This document shows positions 4,420 through 57,485 of a stretch of 64,000 nucleotides of DNA, piece by piece. The notes beneath the pieces were generated by a model. The model had not been told where the DNA came from, made no database searches, and saw nothing but the letters and a program-made list of their open reading frames with translations. The stretch covers positions 31,951,787 to 32,015,786 of the forward strand of contig CM067349.1 of the NCBI GenBank assembly GCA_034190875.2. Reading direction: 5' to 3'. This DNA comes from Urechis unicinctus. Its lineage: Eukaryota > Annelida > Polychaeta > Xenopneusta > Urechidae. Each line of letters starts with the position of its first letter. Positions within the stretch are counted from its first letter, which is position 1. The translations under genes were made by a program, and so were the position numbers.

Positions 4420-5277
4420 TTGTCTATGGCAGTCAGCCAAGCCAAAACCGTTGTGAATGAGCTGCTGACCTACGCCTTTCACCACTTGAAAAGTGCTGCC
4501 AATGACAGTATCAAGGATGTGATCGCCGGGTTTTCCTGTCCTGAGGTCATTGCTGAGGCGAAAACGATACTCGGAGAATTACTCAGATCAGCTGCCACTG
4601 ATAGAAAAGCGCCAGAGCCGAGGGCTAAAGAAATGGCACATGAAAGAGATTGATTATATTATGAAGAGTCTGAAGGCAATCAACCTAACTTTTTGCGATG
4701 CAAAGCTGCCGGTTATGTTTGTGGCAATCAACTTAATCAAGCTGCCTCGCAGCCTTCCCGAGGAATGCACCGCTGTTGCGATAAATGAAAAACTTTGCAA
4801 ACCTGAAGCCCAAATGGCATCCACATCATGTGACGCACATTGCTTTGGAGTAATCACCATCTTCCACTCCCCTTTTGAAAATAATGACGCGTCAGAAATA
4901 CCTACTCCCTCGTCGACTACCTCTCAAAGAGGAGTTCCACCTTCAACCGCATCAACAGCGCAAACTGAAGAAGAAGGATCGGCAGATAGCGCGAGAAACG
5001 GAGACAATTCAGGAGAGGCCCAGAGCTATTTTTGGGTAGCCGCACCGATACAAAACTGGGTGCAGGACCTAGAAGATATGATCTCTTCATCTTTTGCGCG
5101 CATCGAGAAATCGACACGTCATTGCTAAAATCATTTTTGGAAGAACAGAGCGTCAAGGGGCTCGAAATTGAATGCGCATACAAACCAGAATCTTGGTCAT
5201 TTCCATACCGGATAGCTATAGAGACTGGAGATAAAAATCTGCTTTACAAGCCAGATTTCTGGCCTGAAGGTATTTGA
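4420..5277 (+). pseudogene. LINE ORF1 protein relic
   Basis: Three open segments join end to end: frame 1 from 4,420 to about 4,645, frame 2 to about 5,045, then frame 1 to 5,277. The first has a short N-terminal segment (AKTVVNELLTYAF). The second carries IDYIMKSLKAINLTFCDAKLPV and LPRSLPEE, then an acidic, Ser/Thr-rich low-complexity stretch (about 4,890-5,010). The third reads YDLFIFCAHREIDTSLLKSF and ends PESW...LLYKPDFWPEGI, which I recognise as the C-terminal RNA-binding (RRM-like) module of ORF1 proteins in some invertebrate LINEs. The 192-codon frame at 4,550-5,128 is longer than chance predicts. In an active element this protein would bind element RNA. Frame changes near 4,645 and 5,045 break it here. 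The start codon at 4,420 is simply the first ATG of the frame; the true start is uncertain. Confidence 0.68.
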
Positions 5278-5334
5278 TGCAGGCGTTATTAGAAAACAAC
5301 GCACGTTATAGGTAAATTTCTCTTAGCTGCACTT

Positions 5335-7525
5335 ATGAATATTAGTCCAAACAGCAATGATTTTAATATATGCTCTTTGAATAAGGAGGTATGCTCCCTA
5401 TGTTAGCGATTGTTGAACCACTTCAGGTGTGATATAATGTGTTTGCAAGAAACTTGGTTATTAATTATTCAAGAAATAAAGTAACGAACGAATATAATGA
5501 GATTACTAATATAATTGAGTCTGTTGTCAATTCAATTAGCTGTACCTCGGTTGTAGTTTGCGGTGATTTAAACACTTCGTTTGAACGAACCAATGCACAG
5601 TCTCGCTGTTTGAATGACTTTATTGCGAGAAATTGTTTGAGGGTTTGTTGGAACAGTAAAACATCCTCAAGAGATTGTATTTATACTAATTTTGCTCTGA
5701 ATCAGATGTCTTGTATCGACCATTTTCTAGTTAGTGATAATGTTTTCAGTAAGATGTGATGCAGTAATGTTATTCGTGACCCAACAAACCCGTCGAATCA
5801 TAGTGCTATATTCATCACAATAGATGTTAATATTGACAACGTTATGTCTTCAGACAGTAATAGATTCTTGCGAGATGATCGGCTCTCGTTGAGTCAGGCA
5901 AATGAGGTAGATGTTATACGGTACAAGAGGATATTGGATATTTTGCTTGATGTTGTGTGTGTGTCGCATGATGCGTTTCAATGCAGCGATAAGTGGTGCC
6001 GTGAAAGCAATCACAAAGCAGATATTGATGCATTTTGTAAACTGTTGCACAAAAGCTGGTAAAGAAACTAACATCAAAGAAGCCTTTTCAAGGAAAATTG
6101 CGGGATGGTTAGAGATTGTAAAACCAGACATTTGCATGTGATGTTGATCGGTGTGGCAAACCTAACAAAGGTACTGTGCATGACATAATAAAGCAGTCAA
6201 GTCATAAATATCATTATGCCGTATGCGCGGCCAAAAACAATGATTTTGATATAAAGAATGTCAATGTTACTGAAAACGCATGTAGAAATACAGACTTTTG
6301 CGTGAACTAAAAAAGATCAATCCACATTTTAAGAGTGAACCTACTGCGGTAGATAATGCAAGTGGTCTAGAGCCAACGGCAAACCTTTTTCTGGATAAAT
6401 AATCAGCGTTTTTCAAATGTGTTCCCACAAACGACAATGATATCCGTGATTTGATGAAAACCGGGATTAGTTATGACAGCACAAGATATCATGTTGTACA
6501 TCATCTGTTGTATCTGAATGTATAGGAAAGTTAAAGAGTAAACAAAGCGATGGCAATCGTCAGCTTTTTTCTGACCATTTGATTAACGGGACGCCCAAAC
6601 TTGTTGGTCTGTTACGTAAACTATTCCATGCCATGATTTCACATGGCCATACTGCTGATAATTTATTAAATTCAACGATTGTTGCCTTACCAAAAGATAT
6701 GAGATTATCATTAGGTTGTAGTGATAATTACAGGGGAATTGCATTACGTAGCGCGATTTTTACAGTTTTAGATATGATAATACTAAAACAATATGGTAAG
6801 GTTTTGTGTACGTCTGATCGCCAATTTTGCATCAAAAAGGGACATTCTGCAATCCTTTGCATGACTGTATTTAAAGAAACAACAACTTTTATACGCATAG
6901 AAATAGCGATGTTTTTAGTTGTTTATTAGATGCTAGTACAGCCTTTGACAGGGTACATTATGAAAAATTATTTTAATTGCTATCGCAGTGTAAAGTGCCT
7001 CCTCTTATATTTAGGTTTCTTGTGGATAGCTATACTAGACAGACTATATCTGTTGAATGGGAAGCATGGTTATCGAATGTATTAAACGGTGTTAAATAAG
7101 GTGGTGTTATTTCACCGATATTATTCACTGTGTACATTGATGAGTTAATACAGAGGTTAAAAAAGTCTGGACTAGGCTGTCATATAGGCAGCGAATATCA
7201 AGGTGCGCTTGGTTATGCTGATGACATTACCTTACTCAGTCTGTGTCTCCGTGCATTGAGCAATATGTTGAAAATATGTGAACGATTTGCTGATGAATAT
7301 AACGTGACTTTTAATATGGCCGGCCAGTAAATGAATTTGATAAAGTGATATTGAATGGCCCACAACACTTAGGGAACTATATTGATAACACGTTGAATGA
7401 TTATAGTGATTATACATCAAATGTTCCATGTTTAATGTGGGTTTCAAGCCATTCTTCAAAATACGATTTGACACAAGTGAATGATGACGATGTTTATCAA
7501 TCAATTTATCCATTAATGCGATGTT
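5335..7525 (+). pseudogene. LINE ORF2 relic: endonuclease and reverse transcriptase
   Basis: The ATG at 5,335 opens NICSLN, followed by CLQETWL (5,437-5,460), the N-terminal endonuclease motif with its catalytic Glu. The frame then changes and about 100 residues of the endonuclease core are missing. It resumes with VVVCGDLNTS (5,550-5,580), SCIDHFLVSDN (5,709-5,741) and SNHSAI (5,793-5,810), covering the catalytic Asp-x-Asn and His motifs. A linker (KAGKET, AGWLEIVKP, later SHKYHYAV) runs in frame 1. The RT has SDNYRGIAL (6,720-6,746), DASTAFDRVHY (6,929-6,961), a stop at 7,097 just before GGVISPILF (7,100-7,126), and GALGYADD (7,202-7,225) with the catalytic Asp pair intact. It would act as the nickase and polymerase of target-primed reverse transcription; stops and shifts make it non-functional. 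Confidence 0.85.
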
Positions 7526-9640: not shown

Positions 9641-10079
9641 GTAATATTGTTAGGCCATTCACAATATTAAATGATTCAAAAGGTATCTGTCTATACTTCA
9701 AAAATTAAGACAGAATGTTGTCTAAATGTATATTCGTTGATTTAACATGTATATAAATAAATGCGATGCTTAAACAAGGCTGCTTAGAGCAATAGAGTCT
9801 TGTAGATGCAAGGCATGGCGAATGTGCTATTCAAACTACCAATGTTATTGAATCTTTCATTCAACCCACTTTTCCAGCTTCAGATTTACGCGCGAATATG
9901 AAAGCAAGGAAGCACGTGAATTATTACAATTTGTCGTAAATAAGGTTTTCCCATTGCCAATGAAAATGTGATACAGATTCAATGATAAAAGTCTTTTATA
10001 GTCCATTGACTGAGTAGCGTTGCATCTGTCCGATAAGTATATCACTAACTATCCAATACTTATTTGAGGGATAACTGAA
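9641..10079. other. No gene recognised
   Basis: AT-rich spacer between family A copy 1 and the family C repeat. Nothing recognised. Confidence 0.4.
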
Positions 10080-10262
10080 TGAAGATATGACATTGGTTTG
10101 CGAGTGTATTGCTCATGACCAATCTACGAATTCATTAATTAAGTTCTAGCAACGTTTGTTTTTGAATGGATGGACTGATCAAAATGTCGGTGCAGAGCGC
10201 AACTATTCTGGAGATTGTTATCAATGACATACAGGGTCGTCTAAGATCAATTCAGCTGTCCA
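10080..10262 (+). repeat. Dispersed repeat family C, copy 1
   Basis: Matches 24,530-24,690. Both contain 'tgaccaat', then an 'aattaag' word, then 'tttttgaatggatgg' or 'ttttagatggatgg', then 'ctgatcaaaatgtc' or 'cagattaacatgtc', and further on 'caatgacat' or 'aatgacat'. No product is inferred. Confidence 0.45.
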
Positions 10263-11344: not shown

Positions 11345-13405
11345 CGCTAGTAGCGTTAAATCAACGCCATTTACAATAACCTGATACTACTTTAGACATC
11401 ATGCGGGTGCCAGGGCGAATCACGCTAAGTGCCTGCCAAACTGCCAAAATATTGCACCGTCAACCGTTTGGTCTAAACATTTCTGATGGTTGAATAACTG
11501 AAAACAGTGCGGCATATTATGAATGCAAAGGGGGATATTGACCTTTAGAGAATCTTACTGCTTACCTTTTGTGTGCTAATGTAATCGAGCGCGCAGAAAC
11601 CGGTTGAATGATTTGTCAACACCCACCAGTCTATTTTGGCACTTTCGGGGTATTGGCCATACGGTGGATGATTCAAGACACAACAGCAAAGAGGTTTTTT
11701 TCCTCTCCATGGGTGGGACTGCAGCATATTCGCCAGATTTATGTTTACGGAAAACATCAATGGACTCTATTTGTCATTTTCATCAAATCGGAATCTATTT
11801 TGCCTTAGAAGCATCATCGGAAAGTCAACTGGCTGTTTTGCGAAAGCTACATCTTGTTATTGTATCAGTGCCATTTTTCAATGATTAGATAAAACATATC
11901 CCCTTTGGTCAAAAATAACAGGATTGCCGCTGAACAGAGGTTGAAAGAGGTATAACTTCATTGACCTGCTTGCTATTGGTTTGCTCGATAAGTCACTGCA
12001 TCATAACGCCTTTGAAACTGTTTAGTTTAGATGTTTAGATGGCCAGTTATCCGTCTACAGAATAACAGGCGCCTGCGTCATTTCTATGAGTAAATTATTA
12101 TGAACACATTAAATAATTTTCTCACTTTGTAGCTTGGTTACTTATCTGAAATCGGACCCAGGGGTCAATTTTCAAATTTTATGTCAGTGACAAAAACTGA
12201 CATTGGTACCAATATTAAGCTGAACAAATATCGGCGTCGTTTCCGTTTTTTAATAAGCGTACATTTCATATATGTGAAGCATAAATATACACAAAGTTAA
12301 AGAAGATCATCCGAAAGTACCACAAACGAATCATTTATGAATGCGTGACATATAGCGACTTGGTCACCTTTCCGTTATATATGGATGATGCCTTTACTAA
12401 TGAAATCTTTGTACTTCATATGGTTGGTACAACTCATTAATATAATATTTGTAAATGTTCATCGATTTTGAAAGACGAAGCCCATAGAACTTCATTAACG
12501 AGCATGGTATTAGTTAATCTATTCACTTCGTGCACATTTGGTGAAATGCTGTACGCATATAACAGTTGTCCATGAATTACCATCCCACCCCTTTAATTTC
12601 GTTCGAGTTATGATACCACAATGATAACTTGGGTATAACCATTACCCATAACCCTTCATAATGTGCTATTAAGCAAAAGGATTTAATATGTGACCTTACA
12701 ATATGCGAGTACTGTTAAGTAGGCCTTTTGTAAAGGTGGAACAAAATGTGCCATTTATATCTGATCTGTAGTGTCCTCTATTCGTCGTAGGACTTGCGTA
12801 AAGTCGGGTTCCTTGACATGTGACACGTATCCCAAATTGCACGGTACTGAAGGGCATGATTTGATAAGGCCCAAGGGAACAATGTTTTGCCGACTGCATT
12901 CAGAAACATGATAGCAGTGATATAGAACAAGTCAGTTGTGATTTGATGCTAAGCTCCTAATACCTTACCACACTGGTAGAGCTCTAAAAACAAACATCTC
13001 TTATTGCTTGGCCGAGCATTAGTGAAAAACGCTGTTATTGGTTTACATGTTTAAGTCAAAGAATTATACATTTTGAAAGATATGGGCGACCTATACACAT
13101 ATGTTACTCAAATCTTGCATAATAAGGTCCAGCGCTGTGTATGATTGTAAAATAAGTAGCGGTTAGTTTTATAATGGAAAGTAGCTGATGAATATTTTCG
13201 CTTAACGTAATAGTGGGTATGCACTATAAAACAGGTAGCTTTACGTCAGTAATACAATTAATTTCATAAATAAGACCAAGTGAAGCAATAGATCAAAACC
13301 ATCACGATAACAGATGTTTAGTACAATGCAATTGATGGTCTGCGGTTAGAAAGTAAAATATCAAGAGTATGGATTTTATATATCACAAATATTGGCTCGC
13401 TAACC
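11345..13405 (+). repeat. Dispersed repeat family A, copy 2 (left and middle part)
   Basis: Collinear with 28,150-30,560. Shared blocks: 'gttaaatcaac' (11,352 and 28,153); 'ttgtcaac.cccac.ag.ctatttt' (11,614-11,638 and 28,375-28,399); 'acaaacgaatc' (12,322 and 29,341); 'ttccttgaca' then 'gacacgt' (12,809 and 29,731); 'gagcat.agt.aa' to 'catgtttaagtc.aagaat' (13,012-13,066 and 29,949-30,001). It also matches 26,478-26,535 over 13,355-13,405 ('aatatcaagag' then 'aatattgg'). Pairwise identity looks like 60-75% by eye. No coding frame is conserved between the copies, so a non-coding repeat is most likely. Confidence 0.7.
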
Positions 13406-13780
13406 AAAACCCCTGTCGATGTAAGTTTACAGGAATGGATGACCGTACGCCCTACTGTGTTCATTCTAGCAAACATTTTCACCGACATGGCTAAGGAGCG
13501 TGCATCTTTCGCCACTTTATTTAATCAGTCATTACTACTGTGGTCTTAAGATAAAGCCTTAAGGCTCCCCTGTCATGTGTATGTGGTGAATTTGGACTCC
13601 ATTTTCTCAGCACACCGGGATCGTACCTCAGATTCAACCACCATTTGTTGCAATTGTGGGACCAGGAGAAAATGTCTAAGCTAGGATTCGGACCCAGGAC
13701 CCCGTACTGACCGAGTAGACGCTCTACTGTGTTCGATTCAGCAGACATTTTCAACTATAGGGTTAAGGGACGTGCAACAC
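13406..13780 (-). mobile_element. tRNA-derived SINE-like unit, two related copies
   Basis: Read on the minus strand, 13,745-13,675 has a tRNA-like body: a D-arm/A-box-like GTAGAGCGTCTAC, and a T-arm CTGGG-TCCGAAT-CCTAG with a five-pair stem and seven-base loop close to the Pol III B box. A second, more decayed unit at 13,510-13,406 shares the flank (AAAATGT, then AACACAGTAG and GCGTA) and the outer word TGCACG. The tandem arrangement suggests a dimer or two nearby insertions. A working tRNA gene is unlikely: there is no acceptor stem and the D arm is irregular. The tail beyond 13,670 (down to about 13,520) may be the SINE body. Confidence 0.5.
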
Positions 13781-13781
13781 T

Positions 13782-13818
13782 CTGTGTGTGTGTGTGTGTG
13801 TGTGCGTGTGTGTGTGTG
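13782..13818. repeat. (TG)n microsatellite
   Basis: TG repeat with one CG interruption. It lies directly outside the left end module of the satellite-containing region; a (TG)n also lies directly outside the right one (24,147-24,166). Confidence 0.9.
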
Positions 13819-13829
13819 CTCTAAGCGCG

Positions 13830-13990
13830 GGTTACTTGTGGGGTAAATACATCGCCCATTACTGACTTGTGGGGCATCGAAATTTTGTGGGACATCCCAC
13901 AATATTTACTGTCTTAAACGGCTCTACCGGTCGTTGTGGGCGTTCTCACAAAGTTTTGGTCAGTTGGCCCACAAGTCATGTGTGTGAACG
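13830..13990 (+). repeat. Left end module of the satellite-containing element (inverted repeat of 24,072-24,099)
   Basis: A 28-base block at 13,849-13,876 (ACATCGCCC, 7 bases, ACTTGTGGGGCA) matches the reverse complement of 24,072-24,099 at 21 of 28 positions, with 9 of 9 and 11 of 12 in the two outer parts. Next to it is a near-perfect hairpin, TTGTGGGA-ca-TCCCACAA (13,885-13,902). Further in, TTGGCCCACAAGT (13,963-13,975) repeats, in direct orientation, the TTGGCCCATAAGT near the right end (24,119-24,131). Inverted plus direct sharing at both ends resembles the termini of a mobile element. Confidence 0.5.
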
Positions 13991-15310
13991 AGTGTGTGTG
14001 TGAATTTGGAGTGTGAATGATATAAAATCACACTCCACCAGCAGGTGCTGCCGCTTAGCGACTATTGAACCTTCCCTACAGCGTTGCAGTCTGATTGGCT
14101 ATTGTGTCTTCACCATGGCAACGTCGCGGTCTTCTCTGTGATTGTCGTGTGACTCACTGTTGGCGTTGCTATGAATCAACAAGACAGTACAGCTATCGTC
14201 GGTGTTAGCTTGGCCCTATTTTTTGTGAAATTATAAGTTGAGTTAGATTACCCTGTTATTGTCAGTGATGCATTTGTCGTACGTTATATAACAGGTGACC
14301 AACACCAGGTTTGGTATTATTTACCAGACAAGGCACATGGTCTTGTCCCATAAGTCTATATTGTACGCACACTGATATCATTGCATGCGTCAATAGTTCC
14401 TTGAGAGTTCTCGTGGGTCCCACATCACAGTAACGTCCAGAAATAGTTAAAATTGACCGCACAACAGCTATTAGTCAAGTTTTTTCCCAGGACATCTTTT
14501 CACTCGTGAGACGTCAGGCGCATTATAAAGTTATTTGTGTAGTTTGTATGTATGATTCGGGCAAGCCTTGCGTTGATGGATGCAGGGTTTGACCAGTAGT
14601 GTGGAGTATGTTCTAGTGGTGCAAATGGCAATGATGGTAGTGCAGCGTTCGCTTTCGATTAATGTATTCGTGTGTAGGAATGTATCTAAGTAAGAGCGGT
14701 TTGTTATGTCGATAATGTTAGTTGTCCCACATCACTTAATTGCGAACTATACGTTTTGTATTGTAATTAAACAAAGAGTACACTATTTATTAGCGGCATA
14801 TTACCAATTTATTGCAACAAAACCCTGTGTGAATAAGCGTGTACGCGCTAGAGAACTCTGACGGCTCCGGTGTACATCTTTATATACTATATTATGATAT
14901 CATAATGCATGCGTGCCTCAAATACGTCTCTTGACAATTGCGTCGAAGATAGTCTATATATCCACTGTATGTACGATGTCTGACACAATTGCCACACAAT
15001 GATCACCAAAAACGCAGTTTACCGCGTAACTACAAATGGTGTCGAATGACAAACAATCGTGGTGTTACTATGACAACGGATGGATAATTCCATCTTCAGA
15101 TCCTTGAAATTGCCATTTCAGCGTCTCGGCTGCTTTTACAGCAAAAACGCCCGTATGGTGTATGGTGGGTTTCGGGGGGGGGGCGGTTGGTGGTTGAGCA
15201 CTTATGCCCCGTAATGGTAGGTGCATGGAAACATGGTGGTGTAAGGCCCATTAAGGGATGTCGGCCTCGGGGTCAGGGTCAGGCCCCAGGGTCGGGGCCG
15301 AACTAGTATA
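13991..15310. other. No gene recognised; GC-rich patches and a G10 run
   Basis: Non-satellite sequence inside the left end of the element-like region. It includes a CCAAT-type word (GATTGGCT, 14,093-14,100), a G10 run at 15,174-15,183 and a GC-rich stretch at 15,240-15,300. None of these is enough to call a promoter. The only open frames are short and unrecognised. Confidence 0.4.
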
Positions 15311-16220
15311 GCAATGACGTCGTGCTTGTCTGAAACCATCATGCGACGAGATGGCAGTGGAATTCTAGCACGAAACACAAAACCCAATTCATGGTACTTG
15401 TGGAACATCTCACGTGTCACACTCGAACAAATAATTTTGGATAATCCCACTAGCATCTCTCCAACAGTTAGCGCAAGCGAACACAGATGGACGTATCTCG
15501 GTTGTTCTGCTTAGTTACTTTTGTTAACAGGCATTGGCGAAGTGGCAATATATGTGTTCGTTCAACTTTCTTATTGATTGAGTATGACATAATCCCCGCA
15601 TCACTGTACTAGGGAAAAACTCACAAGTATCATTATATCAGTACACACACGGGATGATTGCGAAAGCATTGCATATATCGCCATTTATTATGGCTGCGTT
15701 CTTGCTTTGGTAAACAGACATTGTCGAAGAGGCAATATTTATGTCGGTTCAACATTTAAGATTCAATGACAAAACTTACATGAAACATAAATTAATACCC
15801 ATATAACGGTACTTGTGAGATACTTCATTAGTCTCAAACACACACACACCCATCAGGATTAAGAATAACCCCATAAATATCATTCTCTGAGTATGCACAC
15901 GCGAACATGAGTTAAGTGTTGCCAACAGACATTGGCTGCTACATACAAATCGTTTAAAGTTGAGTTATTAAAAAGCAGATAATGTATGAAATATTTTTTA
16001 AAACATGATATATTACCCATATCACGGTAGATCTCTCAAGTCTCATCCTCCCTCACAAACAACTCAGGGGCTGAAATTATTGCTTTTATACTTTATTCTA
16101 ATTGCTCTCTGGTTGCTGTTGCTAACAAGTATTAAGAAGGGACAATATTTGAAAATAGAACAGACGTACTACGGTACCTGTCACGCATCCAAGTTATCAA
16201 TAACTACGTATGAAACTGGG
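15311..16220 (+). repeat. Diverged satellite monomers, left block
   Basis: About four degenerate monomers of the 18.1-24.1 kb array. Each has the order 'cggtact(tgtg)', 'tctcac', 'cacac', 'aataa.ccca', 'agtatcat' and 'gcacac..gaaca' (examples at 15,390-15,490, 15,600-15,655, 15,805-15,915 and 16,015-16,070). They are far more diverged than the right block and are separated from it by about 1.9 kb of non-satellite sequence. Confidence 0.65.
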
Positions 16221-17270
16221 TTCCACTAGGCCTCACTATGGTGGCATAACCACGGCATATATACGAGCTATCGTTAATAGTAATTAAGTTTGCACGCACA
16301 GTGACGCTGGGCAAAGACTAAAAGTGTAGGCCGCATCAGGAACAAGTCTAATGATAAATGCAAAATCATCTAGCGCCATTAAAACTGTTGCATTATTATG
16401 CAACAGTTATAGAGACGGTGATTACGCATGTTGGTGTGCTGGGAGAATGTCGTTCTCCATCTTTGATTTTTGTGTTCGTGTAAACCATTTTAGAGCGGAA
16501 CTATTGATATGATGCAACGATCGGTTATTTTTTGGCGAATATGTTGGATATATAGTGTTACCTAGATTCCGTATTTAGTTGCGGTAAAACTGTTGCGGTG
16601 CCTGGTTTACTTATATGTCACACAGCGCATTCAGATCAATCCTGATATAATCCGGTTCGAACTAGGAGAAAGTCAACATCGCTACCTCAACACTGGAACA
16701 ACAAAGGTACCGTGTACGAGGACAATGTCCACTGCAGGCTTAGCCTAACAAAGTTACGGGCAATCCTGCATCCGGAACTTCCGCACCACACCTCGCACGT
16801 TTTGATTTGGGAAGCCATGGCACACAAGGAAGCTTTACTGGCTGACCGGACTGTGGTAACGACTTGCTACAATGTCAAAGATCCACAGCTCCCTGAATTC
16901 AGATGGTTTCGGGTCGGCGAAGGAGGGAGGGGGGGGGGGGGGGGGGGTTATTAATGGGCACCTGTACTCACTTGAAATACTTTCAAGACGATTCGACGGC
17001 ACATTCAAATCATCAGTTGTATCAGGAAATAGAAAGGTTGTTTTCACACCGATTTTGACATGACGTTTACATCGCCATTGTTGCACCAGCTGAACCCAGC
17101 AAAAGTTAACTTGATGTTTATAGGGAATGCTATACATCCATATGCGTAGGATTCACGTTTATGGTCACCTGTATCCATCGCTTGAAGTCGTACGATCGGT
17201 TATAAGTTATCTTCCAGTTAGTCTTCCAACGGTAGTTGGCATTGAGTTGGCGTTAACCTGATTTTTACAA
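16221..17270. other. No gene recognised; contains a G19 homopolymer
   Basis: Non-satellite insert within the array. It has an uninterrupted run of 19 G at 16,929-16,947. An 80-codon frame (16,712-16,954) runs into that run and has no recognisable domain. Confidence 0.45.
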
Positions 17271-17274
17271 AACA

Positions 17275-17760
17275 ATGTCCCTAGGTTGACCTTTACCATA
17301 TTTTAAGGTCACTAAAAAATAGCCAATTGTTGACTCTTAATAACTTAAGAATGTCAACAGCTTTTCTGTCCATATTGACATCATTGATGGATCATTAGTT
17401 TGCGGTTTTATAGTTGACATTGACTAAATTGTCAACTTAAAAGGCTCCTACAATGATTACTTTCTGACACAATATTTCGACAAATACAGCCGCTATGGTG
17501 ACCTCATTTAATCCACTGATGGAGCTTACAAAAGAAGAAGCCAGTAAACCCATGCCATGTTTTTTTTACCTTGACCTCATTTTCAAGGTCACAAAGGTCA
17601 ACTAAGTTTAAATTTGTGCACCGAGCTTCCAATCGTTGGCTGGGCGTATGTGTTAGTTATTGCATGGTCGCGTAGTTGATATGCACTAAGTGGCTAACCG
17701 CAATGGCACCTACCTGCGATTATCTAGTGCAAGATCATACCTAGGTGTTATTTGCAGCTT
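17275..17760 (+). repeat. Tandem pair of a TGACCT/AGGTCA-bearing repeat, about 290-bp unit
   Basis: Two diverged copies. Copy 1 begins with TGACCT-ttaccatatttta-AGGTCA (17,287-17,312); copy 2 with TGACCT-cattttca-AGGTCA-caa-AGGTCA (17,573-17,601). About 115-130 bp downstream of each lies a matching block ('gttgacattgactaaat' and 'gttgatatgcactaagt', followed by 'ggc.cctac'). The palindromic core looks like sequence found in invertebrate repeats. The half-sites match nuclear-receptor elements, but no binding is implied. Confidence 0.5.
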
Positions 17761-18110
17761 ATAATAAAAGTGAATGAAAATGACACATTGTTCTCATCTA
17801 GACCCCTATGAGGATTCGCTATGTGCCTCATTAGTGCTCCAGAATCAGATGTGGTGGGTTCGCCTTCCAGGGTACTTATTCATATGTCATTACAAGCGTA
17901 TTTTGAGTAAATGTTTGTTGCCATTTCATAAATTGGGACCCGCTACATCCGAGGAAGACAAGGGCCTGATCACAACGCCACAATCCACGGACTACAAAAC
18001 TTAAGCAATCGGTCGCTTAAACTGCGAGGTAATTTGACAGCTTGGCTATGACTTTATCCATTGACTGACTATCAACATGCGGAATGGTGTGAACTACAGA
18101 AACAAAGTAT
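17761..18110. other. No gene recognised
   Basis: Short non-satellite spacer before the main array; one unrecognised 76-codon frame. Confidence 0.4.
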
Positions 18111-18114
18111 GAAA

Positions 18115-21100
18115 TAATTAACTAAAACATAACATTATACCCATATAACGGCTCCCGTGAAATATCTAACCAATTTCTCACTCACACACAACTTATTAAT
18201 AATCCCACAAGTCCCATTCTATCAGCCAGCACACACGCAGACAACTTTACGAATGACAAATATAACGTATAGGCCCAACAAATTGCTAATAAATTTAGGA
18301 ATTTATAACTGATTAAGCAGGAAATATTCATCTTACATATCAATAATTCTGGCACACGTGTGTCACACTCACTTACACATCCATCAAAAACATTTCATCA
18401 ATGCGCGAAAGCCAACACCGGTTGTGTGCAACAAACGTTGCCTTTATGTGCTCTTCTTACTCATCCGTTTATGCACATGCCAACAACCATTAATGCATAA
18501 ACACCAAATCTATCTGTTCAGGTTTTAGAATTTAAAAGAGACGAGATCAGTTATTAAATATTATTTCTAAAAACCCGCATCACGGTACTCGTGAAATATC
18601 TCACAAGTTTCACCAACACATACAACGTATAAATAGCCCAAAACGTTTAATTCTATCAGTATGCGCACACGAACACAGGTTGAGGGTTGAAAATATTGCA
18701 ACAAGGTGCCATTTCCGCTAATTCTTTGTCAACAGGCATTGGTGAAATGGCAACATAAATGCCATTTCAAAGTATGATAGTTTAAAAACAGTGTAATTTG
18801 GAAACAATGATTTTAAATATAATATAAAACCCGTATCGGGGTACTTGTAAAATATCTCACAAGTTACAATCATAAACACTGAACACAGCAATAATTCTAC
18901 AAGTATGATACGATTGCTACTCACACACAAACACAGGTGGAGTGTTGAAAACATCGGGATTATCTACTTTTCTTACATATCCTTTTATGGACTTGCCAAC
19001 AAGAACTAATGGATGTGCAACATATATGTCCGTTCAACTGTTGGAATTGAAAGAAAAGTTGGAGTATAAAATATAAAATATTTCATCAATACATAGCATA
19101 ATACCAGCAATAGGGTATTCATGAAGTAGCTCACAAGATTCACCCTTTCACACAAAACAACGAATAACCCCACGAGTATCATTCCATCAGTAGGCGTACA
19201 TGAACCCAGGTGGAGTTTTGAAAACATCGCGATTATCTGTATATTCTAAACATCATTGTATGCACTTGTCAACTAGCATTGATGAAGAGTAAACACAAAT
19301 ATCTGTTCAGCTTTCGGTATTTTAAAAATACAAGATTTAGCGATAAATATTTTGTAAGCACATGACAAAAATACCCACATCACGGTACATGTGAAACATC
19401 TCACAAGTTTCACACTCACACACCCAACTTATGAATAATCCCACAAGTATCATTAAATTAGTATGCGCACACTAACATATGTTGAGTGCTGAAAATATTG
19501 TTATTTTGTGTTATTCCCGTGAATACTTTGTTGCTCTAGGCAACAGATATTTGTGAAAAGCCCATATATATGTTGTAAAATTGTTAGAAATTCCAAAACG
19601 GTTGAAGTACCAAAGATTGATCCTTAAGATAGTATAAAACCCGTTTCAGGATACTTGTGAAATATCTCACAAGTTAAACACTCACACACCCAACTTATAA
19701 ATAACCCCACCAGTATCATTCTATAAGTATGCGCACACGAACACATGTTGAGCGTTAAAAATATTGTTTCTTTAAGTTATTCCCGTGAATGCTTTGTTGC
19801 TCTTGGCAGCGTATATTTGTGAAAATGCCACACATATGTCGTGTAAATTTAAAAAAATCAAACACGGTAGCAGTACCAAAGATTGATCATAAAATACTAT
19901 AAAACCCTGTTCAGGATACTTGTGAAATATCTCACAAGTTTAGCACTCACGCACATTTTATAAATGATCTAATTACACTTTGCCCCACAAGTGGCAAGAG
20001 GGCGATGTGCAATTTAGGTATAAAATATTAAATATTTCACCAATACATAGCATAATACTAGCATTACGGTACTCATGAAGCATCTTACAAGCTTCACACT
20101 TACACACACAACTTACGAATAACCCCAGGAGAATCATTATATCAGTAGGTGCACACAAACACAGGTGGAGTTTGGAAAACATCGCGATTATCTGTATTTC
20201 TTAACATCATTTGATGCACATGTCAACAAGCATTGATGAAGAGCAAACATCTGTTCAGCTTTCGGTATTTAAAAAATACAGGATTTAGTGATAAATATTA
20301 TCAAACACAGAAACAAATACCAACATCACGGTTCATGGGAAACATCTCACAAGTTTCACACTCACACACCTAACTTATGAATAACCCCACAAGTATCAAT
20401 CTATGAGTATGCGCACACAAACATATGTTGAGTGTTGAAAATATTGTTTTGTTCGGGTTATATCCTTACATGCTTCGTTGCTCTTGGCAACAGATATTTC
20501 GGAAAAGGCCACATATATGTTTTATAACTTTTAGAAATTAAAAAACGGTTGAAGTACCAGAGATTGATCCTAAACATAGTATAAAACCCGTATCAGGATA
20601 CTTGTGAAATATCTCACAAGTTTCACACTCACACACCCAACTTATAAATAACCCCACCAGTATCATTCTATAAGTATGCGCACACGAACACATGTTGAGC
20701 GTTAAAAATATTGTTTCTTTAAGTTATTCCCGTGAATGCTTTGTTGCTCTTGGCAGCGTATATTTGTGAAAATGCCACACATATGTCGTGTGTAAATTTA
20801 AAAAAATCAAACACGGTAGCAGTACCAAAGATTGATCATAAAATACTATAAAACCCTGTTCAGGATACTTGTGAAATATCTCACAAGTTTAGCACTCACG
20901 CACATTTATAAATGATCTAATTACACTTTGCCCCACAAGTGGCAAGAGGGCGATGTGCAATTTAGGTATAAAATATTAAATATTTCACCAATACATAGCA
21001 TAATACTAGCATTACGGTACTCATGAAGCATCTTACAAGCTTCACACTTACACACACAACTTACGAATAACCCCAGGAGAATCATTATATCAGTAGGTGC

Positions 21101-24100
21101 ACACAAACACAGGTGGAGTTTGGAAAACATCGCGATTATCTGTATTTTCTTAACATCATTTGATGCACATGTCAACAAGCATTGATGAAGAGCAAACAAA
21201 AATATCTGTTCAGCTTTCGGTATTTAAAAAATACAGGATTTAGTGATAAATATTATCAAACACAGAAACAAATACCAACATCACGGTTCATGGGAAACAT
21301 CTCACAAGTTTCACACTCACACACCTAACTTATGAATAACCCCACAAGTATCAATCTATGAGTATGCGCACACAAACATATGTTGAGTGTTGAAAATATT
21401 GTTTTGTTCGGGTTATATCCTTACATGCTTCGTTGCTCTTGGCAACAGATATTTCGGAAAAGGCCACATATATGTTTTTATAACTTTTAGAAATTAAAAA
21501 ACGGTTGAAGTACCAGAGATTGATCCTAAACATAGTATAAAACCCGTATCAGGATACTTGTGAAATATCTCACAAGTTTCACACTCACACACCCAACTTA
21601 TAAATAACCCCACCAGTATCATTCTATAAGTATGCGCACACGAACACATGTTGAGCGTTAAAAATATTGTTTCTTTAAGTTATTCCCGTGAATGCTTTGT
21701 TGCTCTTGGCAGCGTATATTTGTGAAAATGCCACACATATGTCGTGTAAATTTAAAAAAATCAAACACGGTAGCAGTACCAAAGATTGATCATAAAATAC
21801 TATAAAACCCTGTTCAGGATACTTGTGAAATATCTCACAAGTTTAGCACTCACGCACATTTTATAAATGATCTAATTACACTTTGCCCCACAAGTGGCAA
21901 GAGGGCGATGTGCAATTTAGGTATAAAATATTAAATATTTCACCAATACATAGCATAATACTAGCATTACGGTACTCATGAAGTATCTTACAAGCTTCAC
22001 ACTTACACACACAACTTACGAATAACCCCAGGAGAATCATTATATCAGTAGGTGCACACAAACACAGGTGGAGTTTGGAAAACATCGCGATTATCTGTAT
22101 TTTCTTAACATCATTTGATGCACATGTCAACAAGCATTGATGAAGAGCAAACAAAAATATCTGTTCAGCTTTCGGTATTTAAAAAATACAGGATTTAGTG
22201 ATAAATATTATCAAACACAGAAACAAATACCAACATCACGGTTCATGGGAAACATCTCACAAGTTTCACACTCACACACCTAACTTATGAATAACCCCAC
22301 AAGTATCAATCTATGAGTATGCGCACACAAACATATGTTGAGTGTTGAAAATATTGTTTTGTTCGGGTTATATCCTTACATGCTTCGTTGCTCTTGGCAA
22401 CAGATATTTCGGAAAAGGCCACATATATGTTTTATAACTTTTAGAAATTAAAAAACGGTTGAAGTACCAGAGATTGATCCTAAACATAGTATAAAACCCG
22501 TATCAGGATACTTGTGAAATATCTCACAAGTTTCACACTCACACACCCAACTTATGAATAATCCCACAAGTATCATTCTATTAGTGTGCGCACTCGAACA
22601 TATGTTGAATTTTGAAAATATTGGTTTTTAGGGTTATTTCCTTGCATGATTTGTTGCCCTTGGCAACAGATATTTGTGAAAATGCTACATATATACTGTA
22701 TAACTTTTAGAAATAAAAAAAAACGGTTGAAGAACCAAAGATTGATCCTAAACATAGTATAAAATCCGTATCAAGATACTTGTGAAATATCTCACAAGTT
22801 TAACACTCACACACCCAACTTATGAATAACCCCACAAGTATCATTCTAATAGTATGCGCACACGAACACATGTTGAGCATTGAAAATATCGTTTTTTTGT
22901 GTGTTCCCGTGAATGCTTTGTGCTCTTGACAGCATATATTTGTGAAAAGGCCACACATATGTCATGTAAATTTTAGAAAATCAAAAACGGTTGAAGTACC
23001 AAAGATTTATCGTAAACATATTACTAAACCCTGATCAGGATACTAGTGAAATATCTCACAAGTTTAACACTCACGCACATTGTATGAATGACCTTATTAC
23101 ACTTTGCCCCACAAGTGGCAAGAGGGCGATGTGCAGTTTAGGTATTTAATATCAAATATTTCACCAATGCATAGCATAATGCTAGCATTACGGTACTCAT
23201 GAAGTAGCTCACAAGTTCACACTTACACACACAACTTACGATTAACCCCACAAGTATCATGCTATCAGTAGGCACACACCAACACATTTGGAGTTTTGAA
23301 AACATCGCGATTATCTGTATAGTATAAACATAATTTCAAGCACTTGTCAACAAGCATTGATGAAGAGCATACACAAATATCTGTTCAGCTTTCTGTATTA
23401 AAAAAATACAGGATTTAGTGATAAATATTATTAAACCTATGAAAAAAATTCCCACATCACGGTACATGTGAAACATCTCACAAGTTTCACACTCACACAC
23501 CCGACTTATGAATAATCCCACAAGTATCATTATATTAGTGTGCGCACAACAAATATATGTTGAGTGTTAAAATATTGGTTTTTAGGGTTATTTCCTTGCA
23601 TGGTTTGTTTTTCTCTTGGCAACAGATATTTGTGAAAAGGTCACATATATGCTGTATAACTTTTAGAAATAAAAAAACGGTTGAAGTACCAAAGATTGAT
23701 CCTAAACATAGTATAAAACCGGTATCAGGATGCTTGTGAAATATCTCACAAGTTTAACACTCACACACCCAACTTATGAATTACCCCACAAGTATCATTC
23801 TATAAGTATGCGCACACGAACACATGTTGAGCGTTGAAAATATTGTTACTTTGTGCTATTGCCCAGAATGCTTTGTTGCACTTTGCAGCATATATTTGTG
23901 AAAAGGTCAAACATATGTAGTGCAAATTTTAGAAAATCAAAAACAGTAGCAGTACCAAAGAATGATCCTAATCATACTATAAAACCCGGTTCAGGATACT
24001 TGTAAAATATCTCACAAGTTTAACACTCACACACATTTTATGAGTGACCTCACAAGTACCTTATTATACTTTGCCCCATAAGTTGCAACAGGGCGATGTG

Positions 24101-24110
24101 CATTGTCCCA
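18115..24110 (+). repeat. Satellite array, monomer about 265 bp with hairpin core
   Basis: Roughly 23 monomers in head-to-tail order. Cores start near 18,150, 18,583, 18,837, 19,110, 19,382, 19,650, 19,915, 20,068, 20,330, 20,596, 20,860, 21,015, 21,285, 21,551, 21,815, 21,970, 22,240, 22,506, 22,775, 23,037, 23,190, 23,460, 23,725 and 23,994. The usual spacing is 262-273 bp, with short steps of 153-155 bp (19,915, 20,860, 21,815, 23,037). The core is the inverted repeat CTTGTGAAATATCTCACAAG or a variant, followed by 'cactcacacaccca', 'aataacccca(c)aagtatcat' and 'tatgcgcacac.aacatatgttgag'. Monomers left of 19 kb are more diverged. No coding function is assigned; minus-strand frames across it are discussed in the findings. 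Confidence 0.93.
19681..22537 (+). repeat. Three tandem, near-identical higher-order units of about 950 bp
   Basis: Units are 19,681-20,627 (947 bp), 20,628-21,583 (956 bp) and 21,584-22,537 (954 bp). Each holds four monomers: the rest of a full one, a short one of about 155 bp, and two full ones. Visible differences are few: for example GTGTGTAAA against GTGTAAA, a 6-base loss in a GCAAACAAAAATATC stretch in unit 1, one-base differences in T runs, and GAAGCATC against GAAGTATC in unit 3. That is well above 98% identity by eye, against about 80-90% for neighbouring units. A fourth, diverged version with one extra monomer follows (22,538 to about 23,760). Confidence 0.93.
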
Positions 24111-24170
24111 CAAATCTGTTGGCCCATAAGTGGTCGAAGAGTGGTATGTGTGTGTGTGTGTGTGTGATAT
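24062..24170 (+). repeat. Right end module of the satellite-containing element
   Basis: The last satellite core is followed by TTTGCCCCATAAGT, then GGGCGATGT (24,072-24,099, the inverted partner of 13,849-13,876), then TTGGCCCATAAGT and a (TG)10 run (24,147-24,166). The same TTTGCCCCACAAGT..GGGCGATGTGCA block ends every short monomer inside the array (about 19,978-20,010, 20,927-20,960, 21,882-21,914 and 23,103-23,135). Confidence 0.6.
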
Positions 24171-24520
24171 TTGCTATGTAAGAAAATTAAATACATACTT
24201 AAATCGCCCCATTGTAATCACTGCTGAGACGAGATGACATCGCTTATTAGTTAAGCATGATCGCTACTACTGTGTGACATTGGTATAGATAACGCAAACA
24301 TATTAGCATAATGCGGAATCTAGCTTATCACTCACTTGGTATTTTATCACGCCGAATAAATTGAAGTAATCAATGTACCACATTACAAAAAAAATATCTG
24401 TGTTGCATTGATTGACAAAAATAATTTATTATATGTTGAGTAGTAGAAAGTGCGTTAAGTTGCATCTCTTTTATTAGGATGCCACTCATTATCGTGTGCT
24501 AATGCACAATGAAGAATCGC
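24171..24520. other. No gene recognised
   Basis: Unique-looking AT-rich sequence after the array. Confidence 0.4.
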
Positions 24521-24524
24521 AGTG

Positions 24525-24800
24525 ACTTTGTGGGTATATTTCTACTGACCAATGAATAATCCATGAATTAAGTGTAGATGTTTAGTTTTTAGATGGATGG
24601 GCAGATTAACATGTCACAGCATTTGTTGCTTGTTAATAATGACATCCGGTGCGGTACGGGGGTGGTCCCAGTTGCATCCAATTATAGGACTGACAGGAGC
24701 TCTAAGCGCGGCATCGAACCGACATTAACCTTGGGAAAAAGGTCATCAGATAATGCACAGCCATTTTCATCGAAAAATATGTGGTGTGCAGAAAACTGAA
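24525..24800 (+). repeat. Dispersed repeat family C copy 2 and start of repeat D
   Basis: 24,530-24,690 matches 10,080-10,262 (see that entry). The adjoining 24,698-24,800 matches 25,655-25,790 through 'ctaagcgcgg', 'gaaccgac', 'attaacctt' and a later 'gtag/gtcag' block. Two open frames in one register (24,593-24,799 and 24,800-25,027) are separated by a single TGA. They resemble no protein I know, and the DNA is repetitive, so I do not call a gene. Confidence 0.4.
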
Positions 24801-39455: not shown

Positions 39456-41040
39456 CTTTTACAACCATTGGTCTTTGTCCACTGGGCATGGCCCAAATGC
39501 CAATATGACATATCCTCCATTTTTTGTCCAGTTATTTATAAATCTAACCGTGCAACAGATGCATTAACTAGTGCAATTCCGTACCTGCTGAATAAGGAAG
39601 GATGCGCCTACTTACATATGTACACTAAGCGCTCTAATTATCAGTCGGGAATTCAGGATTGATCTACAGCCTTTCCTATTCTGTTGATAGCCCCGTACAC
39701 TAAGATGTTACCCAACTTTAGAATTGAGAAGCAAAATTCGGTGGTATGGTTTATTGTTTTCTTGAATAAAATGGGTTCCGAGGAGCATAATTGCCTTAAC
39801 GCCTAGCCAAGTACGAAAAAGGGGCCCAGTTAATTGTGATTTGTAGACAAGTTTCCAAAACACGACCGCCTCGGGAGGAAATGCCATCGCCCGACTCAAT
39901 AATGGTGAGGCCAGTATCAATGACAGACACTGAAGGTGAGTAGCATGTATGAAACCTTGAATAGCACGAATACAAACGAATATGCAGACCTCATACATGC
40001 GTAACAAGTGTCTAATAGCTTGTTCAGTTCTCAATGAACAATGAAATGTTTAATCAAATGGTCGATTGGTCAGTATTACAACCGATTAAATAAATGTCCC
40101 CGAAGTATTGTTTACCTTAGCTACTGACGAATGAAATTGTTTAGACATGCGTAATATTTACATAAGTGGGCGGCACCTGTCAGCGTTTGAAAAGTAGTGT
40201 AGTAACAGGCTCACCTAGCACTTTCTCTGGCCACTAATAACATCTTGTCACCGTATTCACATATTGAGCACAGAAATTGAGCAATCACATGCAGTTGATA
40301 AAACCATACAAATGTACATGAATAGTTAGGGACGCATTATTAACATATTTACTATACCATTACTGACCATTCGTTTTCCGTAAACGATCAAACTCATTGT
40401 CGCATGTCGTAGAGGCACATAGTAGGTTATGTGAATATTCTGTAAATTGACTGCTATGCAAGCATGCCTGAAAAGTGTTACATTCCGTCTCAAAGTTGCT
40501 AGATATGGTTGTTATGGTATGATTTTCTACGGTGGTGACATGTGATTTACATACGCATCTGCAGCCGCTGATAAATCCTGTGTAGATGGGACACAATCGT
40601 ATTGATGTGGTGAACCGAAATTTAGCCAGTTTATAGTGCCCACAGTGCTGGTGGAGTACATTGATTTTACATCACTAATGCTTACTCTTTAGTGATACGA
40701 GAACCACGTTATTCTTATGGGAACGTATTAAGCATATATCCCAATTGTTTACCCAGTGAGGGTAACAGTATGGCAGATGTTCGCATAAACAGCCAGCAGG
40801 TTTTAGGCTTATACTAGTTTCATTTTTTCTTACCAACGCATTTTACTTTCTATGGGATGTTCATGGACGTATAAGACTAATTAGAAATGATTTCAAGCGA
40901 ATTTTTAAAATTGTATTCGACTTCAGAGCAAATAACCTTTGGTGAATGTACCTTTACCTCTCTGTGCGAAATTATTGGGAAGCCACATCGAGTAAGAATG
41001 CAGGGTTAGCCCTCTGGGTCATACAATGTCGATGTTTGTT
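39456..41040. other. No gene recognised; family A-like fragment at 39,655-39,730
   Basis: 39,660-39,715 ('gatctacagcctttcctattctgtt' and a later 'acta..atgttac') resembles 8,261-8,322 of family A copy 1. Otherwise nothing recognised; open frames are short. Confidence 0.4.
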
Positions 41041-41052
41041 CCTTACCTTTCA

Positions 41053-41130
41053 CGTTTACCGTAAACGCAGATGTATACACATGTTCTAGGTTACAACGGT
41101 CGAGTTGATAAAAAGATTTATCATCAACTC
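41053..41130. repeat. Two adjacent short inverted repeats
   Basis: CGTTTAC-c-GTAAACG at 41,053-41,067, then GAGTTGATAAA-aaga-TTTATC-atc-AACTC-like pairing at 41,102-41,130. The function of either hairpin is unknown; neither is followed by the U-run or gene context of a known element. Confidence 0.6.
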
Positions 41131-43735
41131 ATATTCATGCGAAAGTTATTGGACCTATATTGATGGGTGCGTAGCAAAGTAATATTACGGTATCGGCCGA
41201 TTGAATAATTTTGCATATCAATGCATGAATTTGCTCCGTGTGAGTATATTTGTTGCACATTACTGCTTTTGATCAGATGGACAATGTCACAATACAATGA
41301 ATCCATGACAACAACTTCGAATGTCACGAATCATCATTGTTCAATACGAAACTTCTTGATTTTTGAATCGAGAAATTCGAAAACACTATCTGAATTACTA
41401 CCTGACCTTTATGGACCGAACAAAATACGAAAGACATTCACGAAATAAGATAAGGGGTCGTCCATGGGAGGGTGTGATCACAATGATCAACATAATATCC
41501 CTTTCGCTTAACTGATTAGGTCATCAAATAAAGTACACATCGGTATCAAAGTTGTTCCAGTATGTCCCACCAGTGTAGTTGTATTTACATTATATAAGAC
41601 CTTCAAATATTTTGAATATCAAAGTGCCAATTGTTTATAACTAACGATCCATGTGTGATTTTTTAATTGAATATATGTAGCCTTTATATTTGTTTATTCA
41701 TCATATATTTATCTTACCTGATAAATGCATAATTGGAAACCACTGAACAGTTGTGGAAAGTACACATATAGGAAATAACTTGTTTGGTGCATTTATGTAG
41801 ACGAAAGATCCTGCTTTAACAAGATCTTGTTAGCAGTTGCCAAATGCGGAAAAGATCAAGGCTGGTCAAACAGTTCACAACGACAAAAGTGAAAATAATG
41901 GCACTTCGACTGACCTTGAAAGGCTCTTGGCTAGGGTTTACACAGATGAAGAGACTAATCTTGTTCAGTTATTGGATTCAGCCGGACACTTTATACATGT
42001 GACAAACCAATTATTCGCTAAGACGGCTGATGTACAGAGGCGTAGCGCAGCTTTCAACACAATGTTGTACCCGGGCAACAACACACTATTTCGCGTCATT
42101 AAATAGGACGTAACAAATAGTTGTGAAATCGGCCTTCATTCCCCTACGTTATGAATAAAGATGCAAGCGTTGGCGAAATATCGTCAGCCACTTGCTCACT
42201 TCTACTTAAAGAGCCGAAAAACGAGGTAAATACGAATCTATTAATCAAAATAAATCACAATACATAACTCGATATATTATGTGTAGTTAAATACAATAGG
42301 CTCATATAAACGACACATATGCGCAACAAGAAAAAAATCAAACATAATATTTAGGTTTACTGAAATTGTTTACTTGTATGCCGCACTAAGTGTGTGCTCA
42401 ATTCACATAAGTAAGATATATGGAGCGAAGGATGTGTTATACTGTCATTTGTCATGACGAAACAGAGTTGCACACGAATGCAAATACATTAGTAAATTTA
42501 TACATACTACTGTGAATGAGTATAATTCATCCTCGGGGAAATTCAAATCAAGTAGACTCTATTCATATGAAAAGGGGCTGCAACTCATGCGATATTTGAT
42601 GTCACCAGGGAATATGCTACGCGAACATTGCTCACAAATTATGAGAAGATAAACTTTTGTCTATCCCATGTCACAGGAAATATGTCGGTGGTGAACAATT
42701 TACTCATGATATTAAGATTCTCAAAATATGCCAATCACCGTATGAAACGTTGGTGCATGGTAAAATAACGTGTCATACTACATCGGAACCGGATATACTG
42801 GCACCGTGCACCGTAGCCTGAAAGGAATCAAATCATTGGCTGTAACCAATGTGCGGTATTTGCTGTTTTGGAGCAAAATATTAAATCCTAACAGTAAATG
42901 GGCACATCTAAGTGACCCCTTCGGGAGGCTTTCATGCGCCAGACAAAACGTATTCTCTTTTATTTCAGCCATATTTCGCACAGCCAGTGTCCCATGTGCC
43001 TTAAAGCACACACCTCTATTTGGCAGAGTTGCTTAATGCTCTACATAGCATTTTAACCCGGTAAATGATACCTAACAATGGTATGATGTCTACTGTTAAC
43101 GTCACACTATATAACCTGTATATGTTGTATGCCCTTTAACCGATACATGCTACCTCCCATCTAAAAACTAAATTAATAATACATCGCTTGGCGCATGCGC
43201 AGGCTTATTTCAAAACATTGCCACCTCCTTATCAACAATATCACGCGTAACAGGTACCCCGTGTACCAGGTCTATTCTATCCAAGACTGAGATAAATACT
43301 ACTGTTCCATGATATGCTGTGAACAGTAGGCGTTGCATAAGTTTTGACACAGTGAAATGCAGCTCATTTAATCTGTTTGTTATAATGTCGCGAGGCAAGT
43401 TCCCACAGCACGAGGTGGCATCTGTCACTTTGTATATAGTTTCGTCATTTTATCGACAGATAATATATACACGGCCAAATAACTCAACTGTTGAAATTTA
43501 TTTCAAGTTTGCTATACTTACATATTGAACATCGCATTATTATGTCAACCCTTAGACACCTTCGGCTATGTCCTTGTGTAATATTTTGCAAAATATATTT
43601 ATGGGAATAAAATCTCATCGGACGCTCCCAGTCTCACTTTACTATATATATAGATAAGTATATTTTCATTAGGTTTATACAGTGCGTTAAACAATTGTTC
43701 CATTGCAAGCACACAATATATAACGATAATGTACT
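41131..43735. other. No gene recognised
   Basis: Short unrecognised frames only (the longest non-repetitive one is 89 codons at 41,837-42,106). Confidence 0.35.
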
Positions 43736-56594: not shown

Positions 56595-57485
56595 TGGCGT
56601 AAGATCGCGTTAGGGTGGCTGGCATTCCCTAGCTGCCATTTCGGGTCGCGGGCTGTGAATTTGCCTGAATAAAATCTGGCGGCATAGACCGAAACGTTAC
56701 GAGAACGCCACGCTAGCAGTTGGTGTGTTTTACTTCAACATCACGACATATCTCGTTGCACTATTACTCAAGGTATCGTTAATCTTAACACAACCGCTGC
56801 GATGCGGTCCTTATCATATTATGTATCAGAAAAATTTATACAAAGTCTACAGTGAATCTGTTTTATATTTGGTTCTGGTTCGATTATCTCCAACATTCAT
56901 CTCACTCTTGATCCAAACTCAATGGTGCTTTTCATATAATAATCTCCCCATCATGCATATCTATGTTCAATTTCCACATGTTTCTTGTATTCATTTACTG
57001 CATAAAAAACATTTTGTCATGTTGTGGCAACAAATTAGCTACTCAAACACAATGAATTATGTGAGATAATTTTGCAGTCATGGCGAATTTGTACGTTGGT
57101 ACGTCATTGTCAAACATCACGTTGGGGTGGACATCAGCATGCTACATCTAATGTATGCTAATCACGCGAGGTGGATGATAATTCATGCGGGTAATTTTAT
57201 TTTATTTCTGCATGAAACAATACGGCAGACAATGCGGGATAGTCCACTATTTATCAAAAGAGCTTTTAGCTTACGCACAGGATTGGGCAATTGAAATGCA
57301 TGTCACGTGATATTATCGGCAACAGATGGATTTAATATAACCACGAAATATGCTTACGAACGTGATACAGGATATCATGTATCTTGTCCTTGTCTGATTA
57401 CGGATATGCGTCTATCGAAGTGTCTATGAGACTTAAATACACAGCGACAACATGAAATATTGATCACCCTGATGGCAATATTAAG
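56595..57485 (+). repeat. Dispersed repeat family B, copy 1
   Basis: Collinear with 63,370-64,000. Shared blocks: 'agaacgccacgctagca' (56,701 and 63,473); 'ttgcacta' then 'ctcaaggt' or 'ttcaaggc' and 'cacaaccgctgcgatgc' (56,755-56,806 and 63,533-63,582); 'cgattatctc' to 'tcactcttg.tccaaactc' (56,881-56,921 and 63,640-63,680); 'attggg.ca.tg' to 'gcatgtca.gtg' (57,283-57,310 and 63,804-63,831); and 'tgtccttgtctgattacg' (57,386 and 63,916). A 114-codon frame inside it (56,725-57,069) is not preserved in the other copy. Confidence 0.75.

Follow-up and report, generated by a model that had tools for sequence, protein, structure and literature searches.

Alpha satellite is a higher-order array, in which divergent monomers are amplified as multi-monomer units. 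Satellite growth inside mobile-element-like DNA is also an already known kind of phenomenon. Tetris, a non-autonomous foldback element of Drosophila virilis, carries tandem repeats of ~220 bp (TIR-220) which grow into satellite arrays, and a 37-bp stretch is common to its outer domain and to these repeats (PMC4079207). In Galileo, according to the same paper, extra binding sites for the transposase are found in the internal tandem repeats, and the authors propose that Tetris may have followed a comparable course (PMC4079207). The HINE elements, which are non-autonomous Helentrons, have subterminal inverted repeats (subTIRs), of 11–12 bp in Cg_HINE of the Pacific oyster (PMC7492417) and of 12–15 bp in HINE-Mo, whose 5′ terminus lies 2–4 nt outside the left subTIR (PMC4067079). 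Cg_HINE and DINE-1 have a complementary repeat of 7–12 bp located 1–12 bp from the left subTIR (PMC7492417, PMC4067079), HINE-Mo is presented without a second complementary repeat (PMC4067079), and the left flank of Cg_HINE contains a microsatellite, 10–500 bp before the array (PMC7492417). Other marks of HINE elements are a palindrome past the right subTIR, integration into T-rich sites with no target duplication, and an autonomous partner that encodes Rep/helicase.

Here, we analysed a window of 64,000 nucleotides of Urechis unicinctus DNA, in which a satellite array seems to have grown inside old mobile-element-like DNA, with part of the right end copied into larger units. In our leading reading, which is tentative and which we place a little short of probable, 13.83–24.13 kb would be what is left of a single transposon-like element, non-coding and non-autonomous, whose internal repeats expanded in place into the satellite. 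The layout resembles most closely the HINE elements with satellite-like arrays, a resemblance that we do not extend to membership of the class. The features on which the analysis is based are given below in order of position.

13,834–13,976, plus strand: left block, with six TTGTGGG/CCCACAA motifs in 143 bp; it contains the inverted module and folds strongly
13,849–13,876, minus strand: inverted copy, on the left, of the D/right-end module, 22/28 to internal D and 21/28 to the end copy
13,863–13,978, no strand: MITE-like short inverted-repeat unit of ~116 bp, with 14-bp arms complementary at 13/14 positions
13,884–13,894, plus strand: candidate 5′ subTIR TTTGTGGGACA, an exact match with a complementary repeat immediately to its right
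15,403–16,146, plus strand: old, decayed monomers, with 57–72% identity to the main array over the BLAST-aligned pieces
16,216–18,089, no strand: monomer-free interruption of the array (profile search, motif count and repeat search)
18,158–24,060, plus strand: main satellite array of ~266-bp monomers (profile search)
19,125–24,155, plus strand: higher-order array A-B-C-D of ~953 bp per unit (unit comparison), with three near-identical recent rounds at ~19,658–22,512
19,924–20,077, plus strand: chimeric internal D unit, in which right-end sequence is followed by an upstream monomer's tail; the others start at 20,873, 21,827 and 23,047
24,061–24,131, plus strand: right terminal block of the array, ending in ...TTGGCCCATAAGT ahead of a (TG)n run (sequence reading and alignment)
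24,072–24,099, plus strand: end copy of the module (module match)
24,104–24,114, minus strand: candidate 3′ subTIR, reading TGTCCCACAAA on the plus strand and matching the left copy exactly

The satellite is organised in higher-order units. A profile was built from 18 monomers, nine of which come from the recent triplication and so bias it towards young copies; it located the satellite at 15,403–16,146 and 18,158–24,060, with weak matches elsewhere in the window (best E 0.079). From 19,125 onwards the monomers are of types A, B and C (259–270 bp each) and a truncated D (153–154 bp), in the order ABCD, ABCD, ABCD, AB-B′-C-D, ABCD, with a B-like monomer (85–92% to B) at 22,513. Identity is 86–100% among A monomers and 69–77% between A and B or C; with 22,513 taken as B, it is 85–100% among B and 88–100% among C, the two types being barely distinct since B and C already agree at 82–87%. 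Monomers of the same type are more alike across units than those of different types within a unit, which marks the array as a higher-order one. As in alpha satellite, divergent monomers were amplified as multi-monomer units, whereas the present array is short and local and its unit has a truncated monomer fused to array-edge sequence. Units 20,078–21,025 and 21,026–21,979 are identical except for indels (945 aligned bases), and the remaining in-phase pairs differ by 7–16%, one out-of-phase pair (72.7%) being excluded. From this pattern it follows that amplification took place at least twice and the latest round was very recent, or that the assembly duplicated a unit; such a repetition may be the alternative to recent amplification.

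The significant monomers all have one orientation, and no minus-strand match was better than E 0.34 in the profile search, so a Tetris-like foldback was rejected. The Tetris repeats lie in long inverted arms (PMC4079207), in contrast to the single orientation of the significant monomers here. The likeness to Tetris lies in tandem repeats that expand to satellite within a non-autonomous element, and in the outer sequence shared with the repeats (PMC4079207). As regards the interruption, no direct repeat of at least 14 bp was found in 16,100–18,200 and the sole structure is one short hairpin (16,380–16,411, 14-bp arms, 93% complementary, 4-nt loop); it is thus an interruption without insertion marks.

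The D units contain a copy of part of the right end. As far as GATGTGCA, the D unit at 19,924 agrees with the terminal D (from 24,002) at 77/87 positions, with one gap of 11 bases; past this junction, 60/68 positions match the tail of a monomer of the 18,851 type. The corresponding values for the D unit at 23,047 are 80/87 and 54/67. The alignments cover these two copies out of four; by reading, the remaining internal D units, at 20,873 and 21,827, are like the one at 19,924. Judging from these alignments, the chimera probably arose through a tandem duplication with a breakpoint in the terminal module. In the simplest history, a single tandem duplication would have taken in everything from the interior of an upstream monomer up to a point within the right terminal module, and the units would then have multiplied, with the latest round very recent. 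This model predicts a unit of about 70 + 3 × 266 + 85 = 953 bp, and the observed size agrees. The decayed left monomers, the D chimera and the near-identical rounds together suggest this order, tandem duplication followed by multiplication of the units, and growth may have proceeded by unequal exchange. Since the duplication would have broken inside the terminal module, the right terminal block would already have marked the edge of the array when the higher-order units arose, and the end module would recur inside the array because part of the right end was captured. The initial annotation had proposed that repeats of an element expanded into a satellite, and the D chimera, which makes the right edge of the array an older terminal sequence, speaks in its favour.

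The two sides of the interval carry related sequence in inverted orientation. The same annotation had claimed an inverted match of 21/28, in two strong parts, between 13,849–13,876 and 24,072–24,099. We recomputed the ungapped comparison with the reverse complement of the latter and again obtained 21/28, borne by ACATCGCCC and ACTTRTGGGGCA. The value lies above all shuffles: the maximum was 20/28 when the 55 kb outside 15,379–24,131 were dinucleotide-shuffled 200 times (20 for the internal-D query and 20 for the end-copy query), and 20/28 in 2,000 local shuffles of 13,001–15,400 in the inverted orientation only. The (TG)n runs said to lie outside each module are there, at 13,783–13,818 and 24,147–24,166 (the latter by reading), and the monomers found with the profile lie between the modules, where almost all of them had been placed. 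When the internal D module was used as the query, 13,849 was the top site on both strands outside the array and right end (22/28). The right module is also present four times inside the array (19,981, 20,929, 21,884 and 23,105), and these copies agree with the left block at 22/28, above the 21/28 of the end copy. The module is not end-specific. Of the proposal that the modules bound an element, the inverted relationship beyond the level of shuffles was retained and the exclusive position at the ends was given up.

In a gapped local alignment, the left block and the right end scored 16.0, a value reached by none of 1,000 shuffles. An unrelated place near 60,000 scored 17.5 (2/1,772 overlapping control windows), so that this measure alone is weak. 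Within 13,000–15,400, the top alignments to the right end fall in the left block, and the next, among the best 12 listed, scores 14.0 near 13,241–13,301. The left block also matches the right end in direct orientation, with 15/19 at 13,958 and likewise a gapped score of 16.0; the direct 19-mer match is weak because it stands just one above other sites, 14/19 being reached at 14,337 and 24,065.

An exact 11-bp inverted repeat, TTTGTGGGACA, is common to the left side (13,884) and the right side (24,104–24,114). Two bases separate part of the left copy from a complementary repeat, and the resulting hairpin at 13,877–13,912 has a z of −3.71, with 2/200 shuffles equally stable. An 11-bp match was found in 23 of 2,295 control pairs and a match with an adjacent complement in 0/2,295, a figure that serves as a guide and not as a probability, because the control pairs (random positions in the same window) overlap one another and TTTGTGGGACA includes the common TTGTGGG motif. 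The internal D units do not have the right-end sequence that bears this repeat.

Six features of HINE elements were listed, of which two were found here and one was absent. Those found are the subTIRs at both ends (exact, 11 bp) and the complementary repeat beside the left one (hairpin z −3.71), the latter as in Cg_HINE and DINE-1 (PMC7492417, PMC4067079). The one absent is the left-flank spacing of Cg_HINE: the first monomer lies at 15,403, so that 1.4 kb separates the left flank from it here, in contrast to the 10–500 bp of Cg_HINE (PMC7492417). The interval shares with HINE/Helentron elements that no coding was found, the 11-bp subterminal inverted repeat and the tandem repeats (PMC7492417, PMC4067079). 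It also shares microsatellite-like DNA after the left subTIR, here a TG-rich stretch at about 13,979–14,010, and a right flank past the last repeat which bears the second subTIR. Unlike in the HINE elements, extra inverted modules lie outside the left subTIR, and the array is a higher-order one with a captured right end. Past the right subTIR, where a palindrome would be expected, a candidate 3′ palindrome is not significant, its folding being like that of shuffles (z 0.18 and 0.00). The terminus rule of HINE-Mo would set the edge near 13,880, and the inverted module at 13,849–13,876 lies farther out. A canonical Helitron, which ends at 3′ in CTRRT with a hairpin, was rejected, as no CTRRT was found in 24,061–24,200 on the plus strand or in 13,781–13,990 on the minus strand.

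The motifs of the left block are concentrated in the satellite. ACTTGTG/CACAAGT occurs three times in the left block (143 bp), 42 times in the main array (5,903 bp) and seven times in the 53.7 kb outside 13,834–24,131, and it is absent from 13,977–15,378 and 16,216–18,089. TTGTGGG was found 28 times on both strands of the window, with six copies in the left block, 15 in the array plus right end and seven elsewhere. The best-kept 12-bp stretch of the divergent monomers is ATCTCACAAGTT (0.93 vs a mean of 0.79 over 20 aligned rows), and CACAAGT falls within the best-kept part, in an alignment anchored at that same motif, which may inflate its figure. The ACTTGTG motifs may once have been protein-binding sites, and by analogy with Galileo and Tetris a multiplication of binding sites would be fitting. 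GTTGC and GGCAAC in some monomers, which we take to be an RFX-like X-box, were kept at 0.81 and 0.82 vs the mean of 0.79, and this candidate was rejected for showing no extra conservation. At 14,090–14,140, between the left block and the first detected monomer, CCAAT-like and X-box-like motifs stand close together by eye, in what is presumably a promoter-like arrangement.

A coding origin of the interval found no support in the ORFs scanned. Pfam detected no family at cut-off in 15 of the 23 ORFs of at least 65 aa, and two weak matches (E 0.013 and 0.027) were taken as chance. The window gave no hits to Rfam at gathering scores and none in a tRNA scan. The 22-base satellite core had no exact match in viral contigs and 19,000–24,200 had no match among plasmids, both sets being ones that may exclude the window's own genome. 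The window has long (AT)n and (TG)n runs and a eukaryotic look. Elsewhere in it, a broken LINE-like retrotransposon lies at 4,500–6,930, with an endonuclease match (PF14529) at 5,433–5,756 (E 1.6e-5, below the Pfam cut-off) and a reverse-transcriptase-like ORF at 6,477–6,929, identified by reading, in which Pfam found no family. Diverged dispersed repeat pairs (64–72%) occur at 48,959–49,330 and 59,999–60,361, at 40,992–41,466 and 54,939–55,448, and at 56,617–57,026 and 63,390–63,798; a further pair (63%) joins 24,358–24,615, just right of the interval, with 9,928–10,188.

Under the one-element reading, the two sides, each with ACTTRTGGG motifs and the 11-bp TTTGTGGGACA in inverted orientation, would be the ends of a single element that was once mobile, a rolling-circle, Helentron-like element being our first guess and a cut-and-paste TIR element the second. 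The module similarity, TTTGTGGGACA with its complement, the D chimera, the higher-order map, the confinement of the monomers and the motif density support this reading. Against it count the left block's own two arms, which could belong to a separate short element, the cues to the left boundary, which disagree (13,834 vs 13,863 vs about 13,880), the 1.4 kb without monomers between the left block and the first detected one, the non-unique gapped score, the result for the 15 of 23 ORFs and the difference in folding described below. No target duplication was seen either: the inverted modules expected of a whole-10-kb TIR/MITE are present, and no direct repeat of at least 8 bp abuts both approximate ends, 13,834 and 24,131, nor was a shorter one seen by eye. 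When the flanks were joined with three bases dropped, they agreed at 18/20 with 24,699–24,718; this match was chosen after looking and is a weak, post hoc hint of an empty site. An element, possibly Helitron-like or with TIRs, had been suggested before our analysis; the inverted sides, motif density, subterminal repeat and older right edge speak for an element, and the canonical Helitron found no support.

Some properties of the left block by itself point to a rival explanation. As single-stranded DNA it folds with a z of −4.41 (0/200 shuffles equally stable), whereas the right-end folds are no better than shuffles (24,002–24,131, z −0.51; 24,050–24,145 on the minus strand, z 0.71). Neither the internal D at 19,924–20,010 (z −0.83) nor 13,834–13,900 alone (z −0.08) is notable against shuffles, and the monomer palindrome at 19,640–19,720 has a z of −2.26. 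The arms of the short unit are 13,863–13,876 and 13,965–13,978, the first of which is contained in the left module. A search that allowed 60–199 nt between arms and excluded low-complexity arms gave a single further pair of this kind in the window. Since the left block has its own fold and arms and also aligns in direct orientation, a short stand-alone element is a serious rival. We thus consider it quite possible, though we doubt it, that the locus consists of two separate things, a MITE-like copy of ~116–143 bp at 13,834–13,978 and an unconnected array edged by the end of a repeat copy of the same family. The 13/14 arms, the strong fold and the alignment to the right end in both orientations (16.0 each, the direct 19-mer being weak) are in its favour. 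However, of all sites in the 55 kb outside the array, the one most similar to the D module sits just 1.5 kb left of the first monomer, the subterminal repeat with its adjacent complement pairs the left block with the right end, and inspection found no duplication flanking the short unit.

It is rather unlikely that the locus is an ordinary local higher-order satellite, with the left block as an old, inverted and rearranged scrap of the array edge and with no mobile unit ever present. The module copies are located in the D units, and higher-order growth by tandem duplication would suffice for the array; yet the left block has no detectable monomer, has a fold and arms of its own, and shares TTTGTGGGACA with right-end sequence that is absent from the internal D units. 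We regard it as improbable that a non-autonomous element of rolling-circle type extends its higher-order satellite from its right end, so that the satellite would record failed or repeated termination; late termination or an upstream restart of replication would then re-copy terminal sequence into new units. That the inverted similarity arose by chance is very hard to accept: one unrelated place does outscore it in gapped alignment, but the motif density and the ungapped match, reached in 0/200 and 0/2,000 shuffles, speak against this. Least credible of all is a longer insert at 13,831–24,698 flanked by a 13-bp duplication, for although the exact 13-mer GCTCTAAGCGCGG occurs at 13,818 and 24,699 and nowhere else on either strand of the window, the window holds 61 merged exact repeat pairs of at least 13 bp (low-complexity words and wholly intra-array pairs excluded), one of which may lie near the ends by chance, and on reading nothing like the left block is present at 24,698.

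How satellites originate is a long-standing question; the sources that have been reported include mobile elements. At this locus the order of events can be read because it keeps old monomers, a founding junction in terminal sequence and a very recent amplification. If copies occur elsewhere in the host, the locus would test whether satellite growth starts at the ends of elements.
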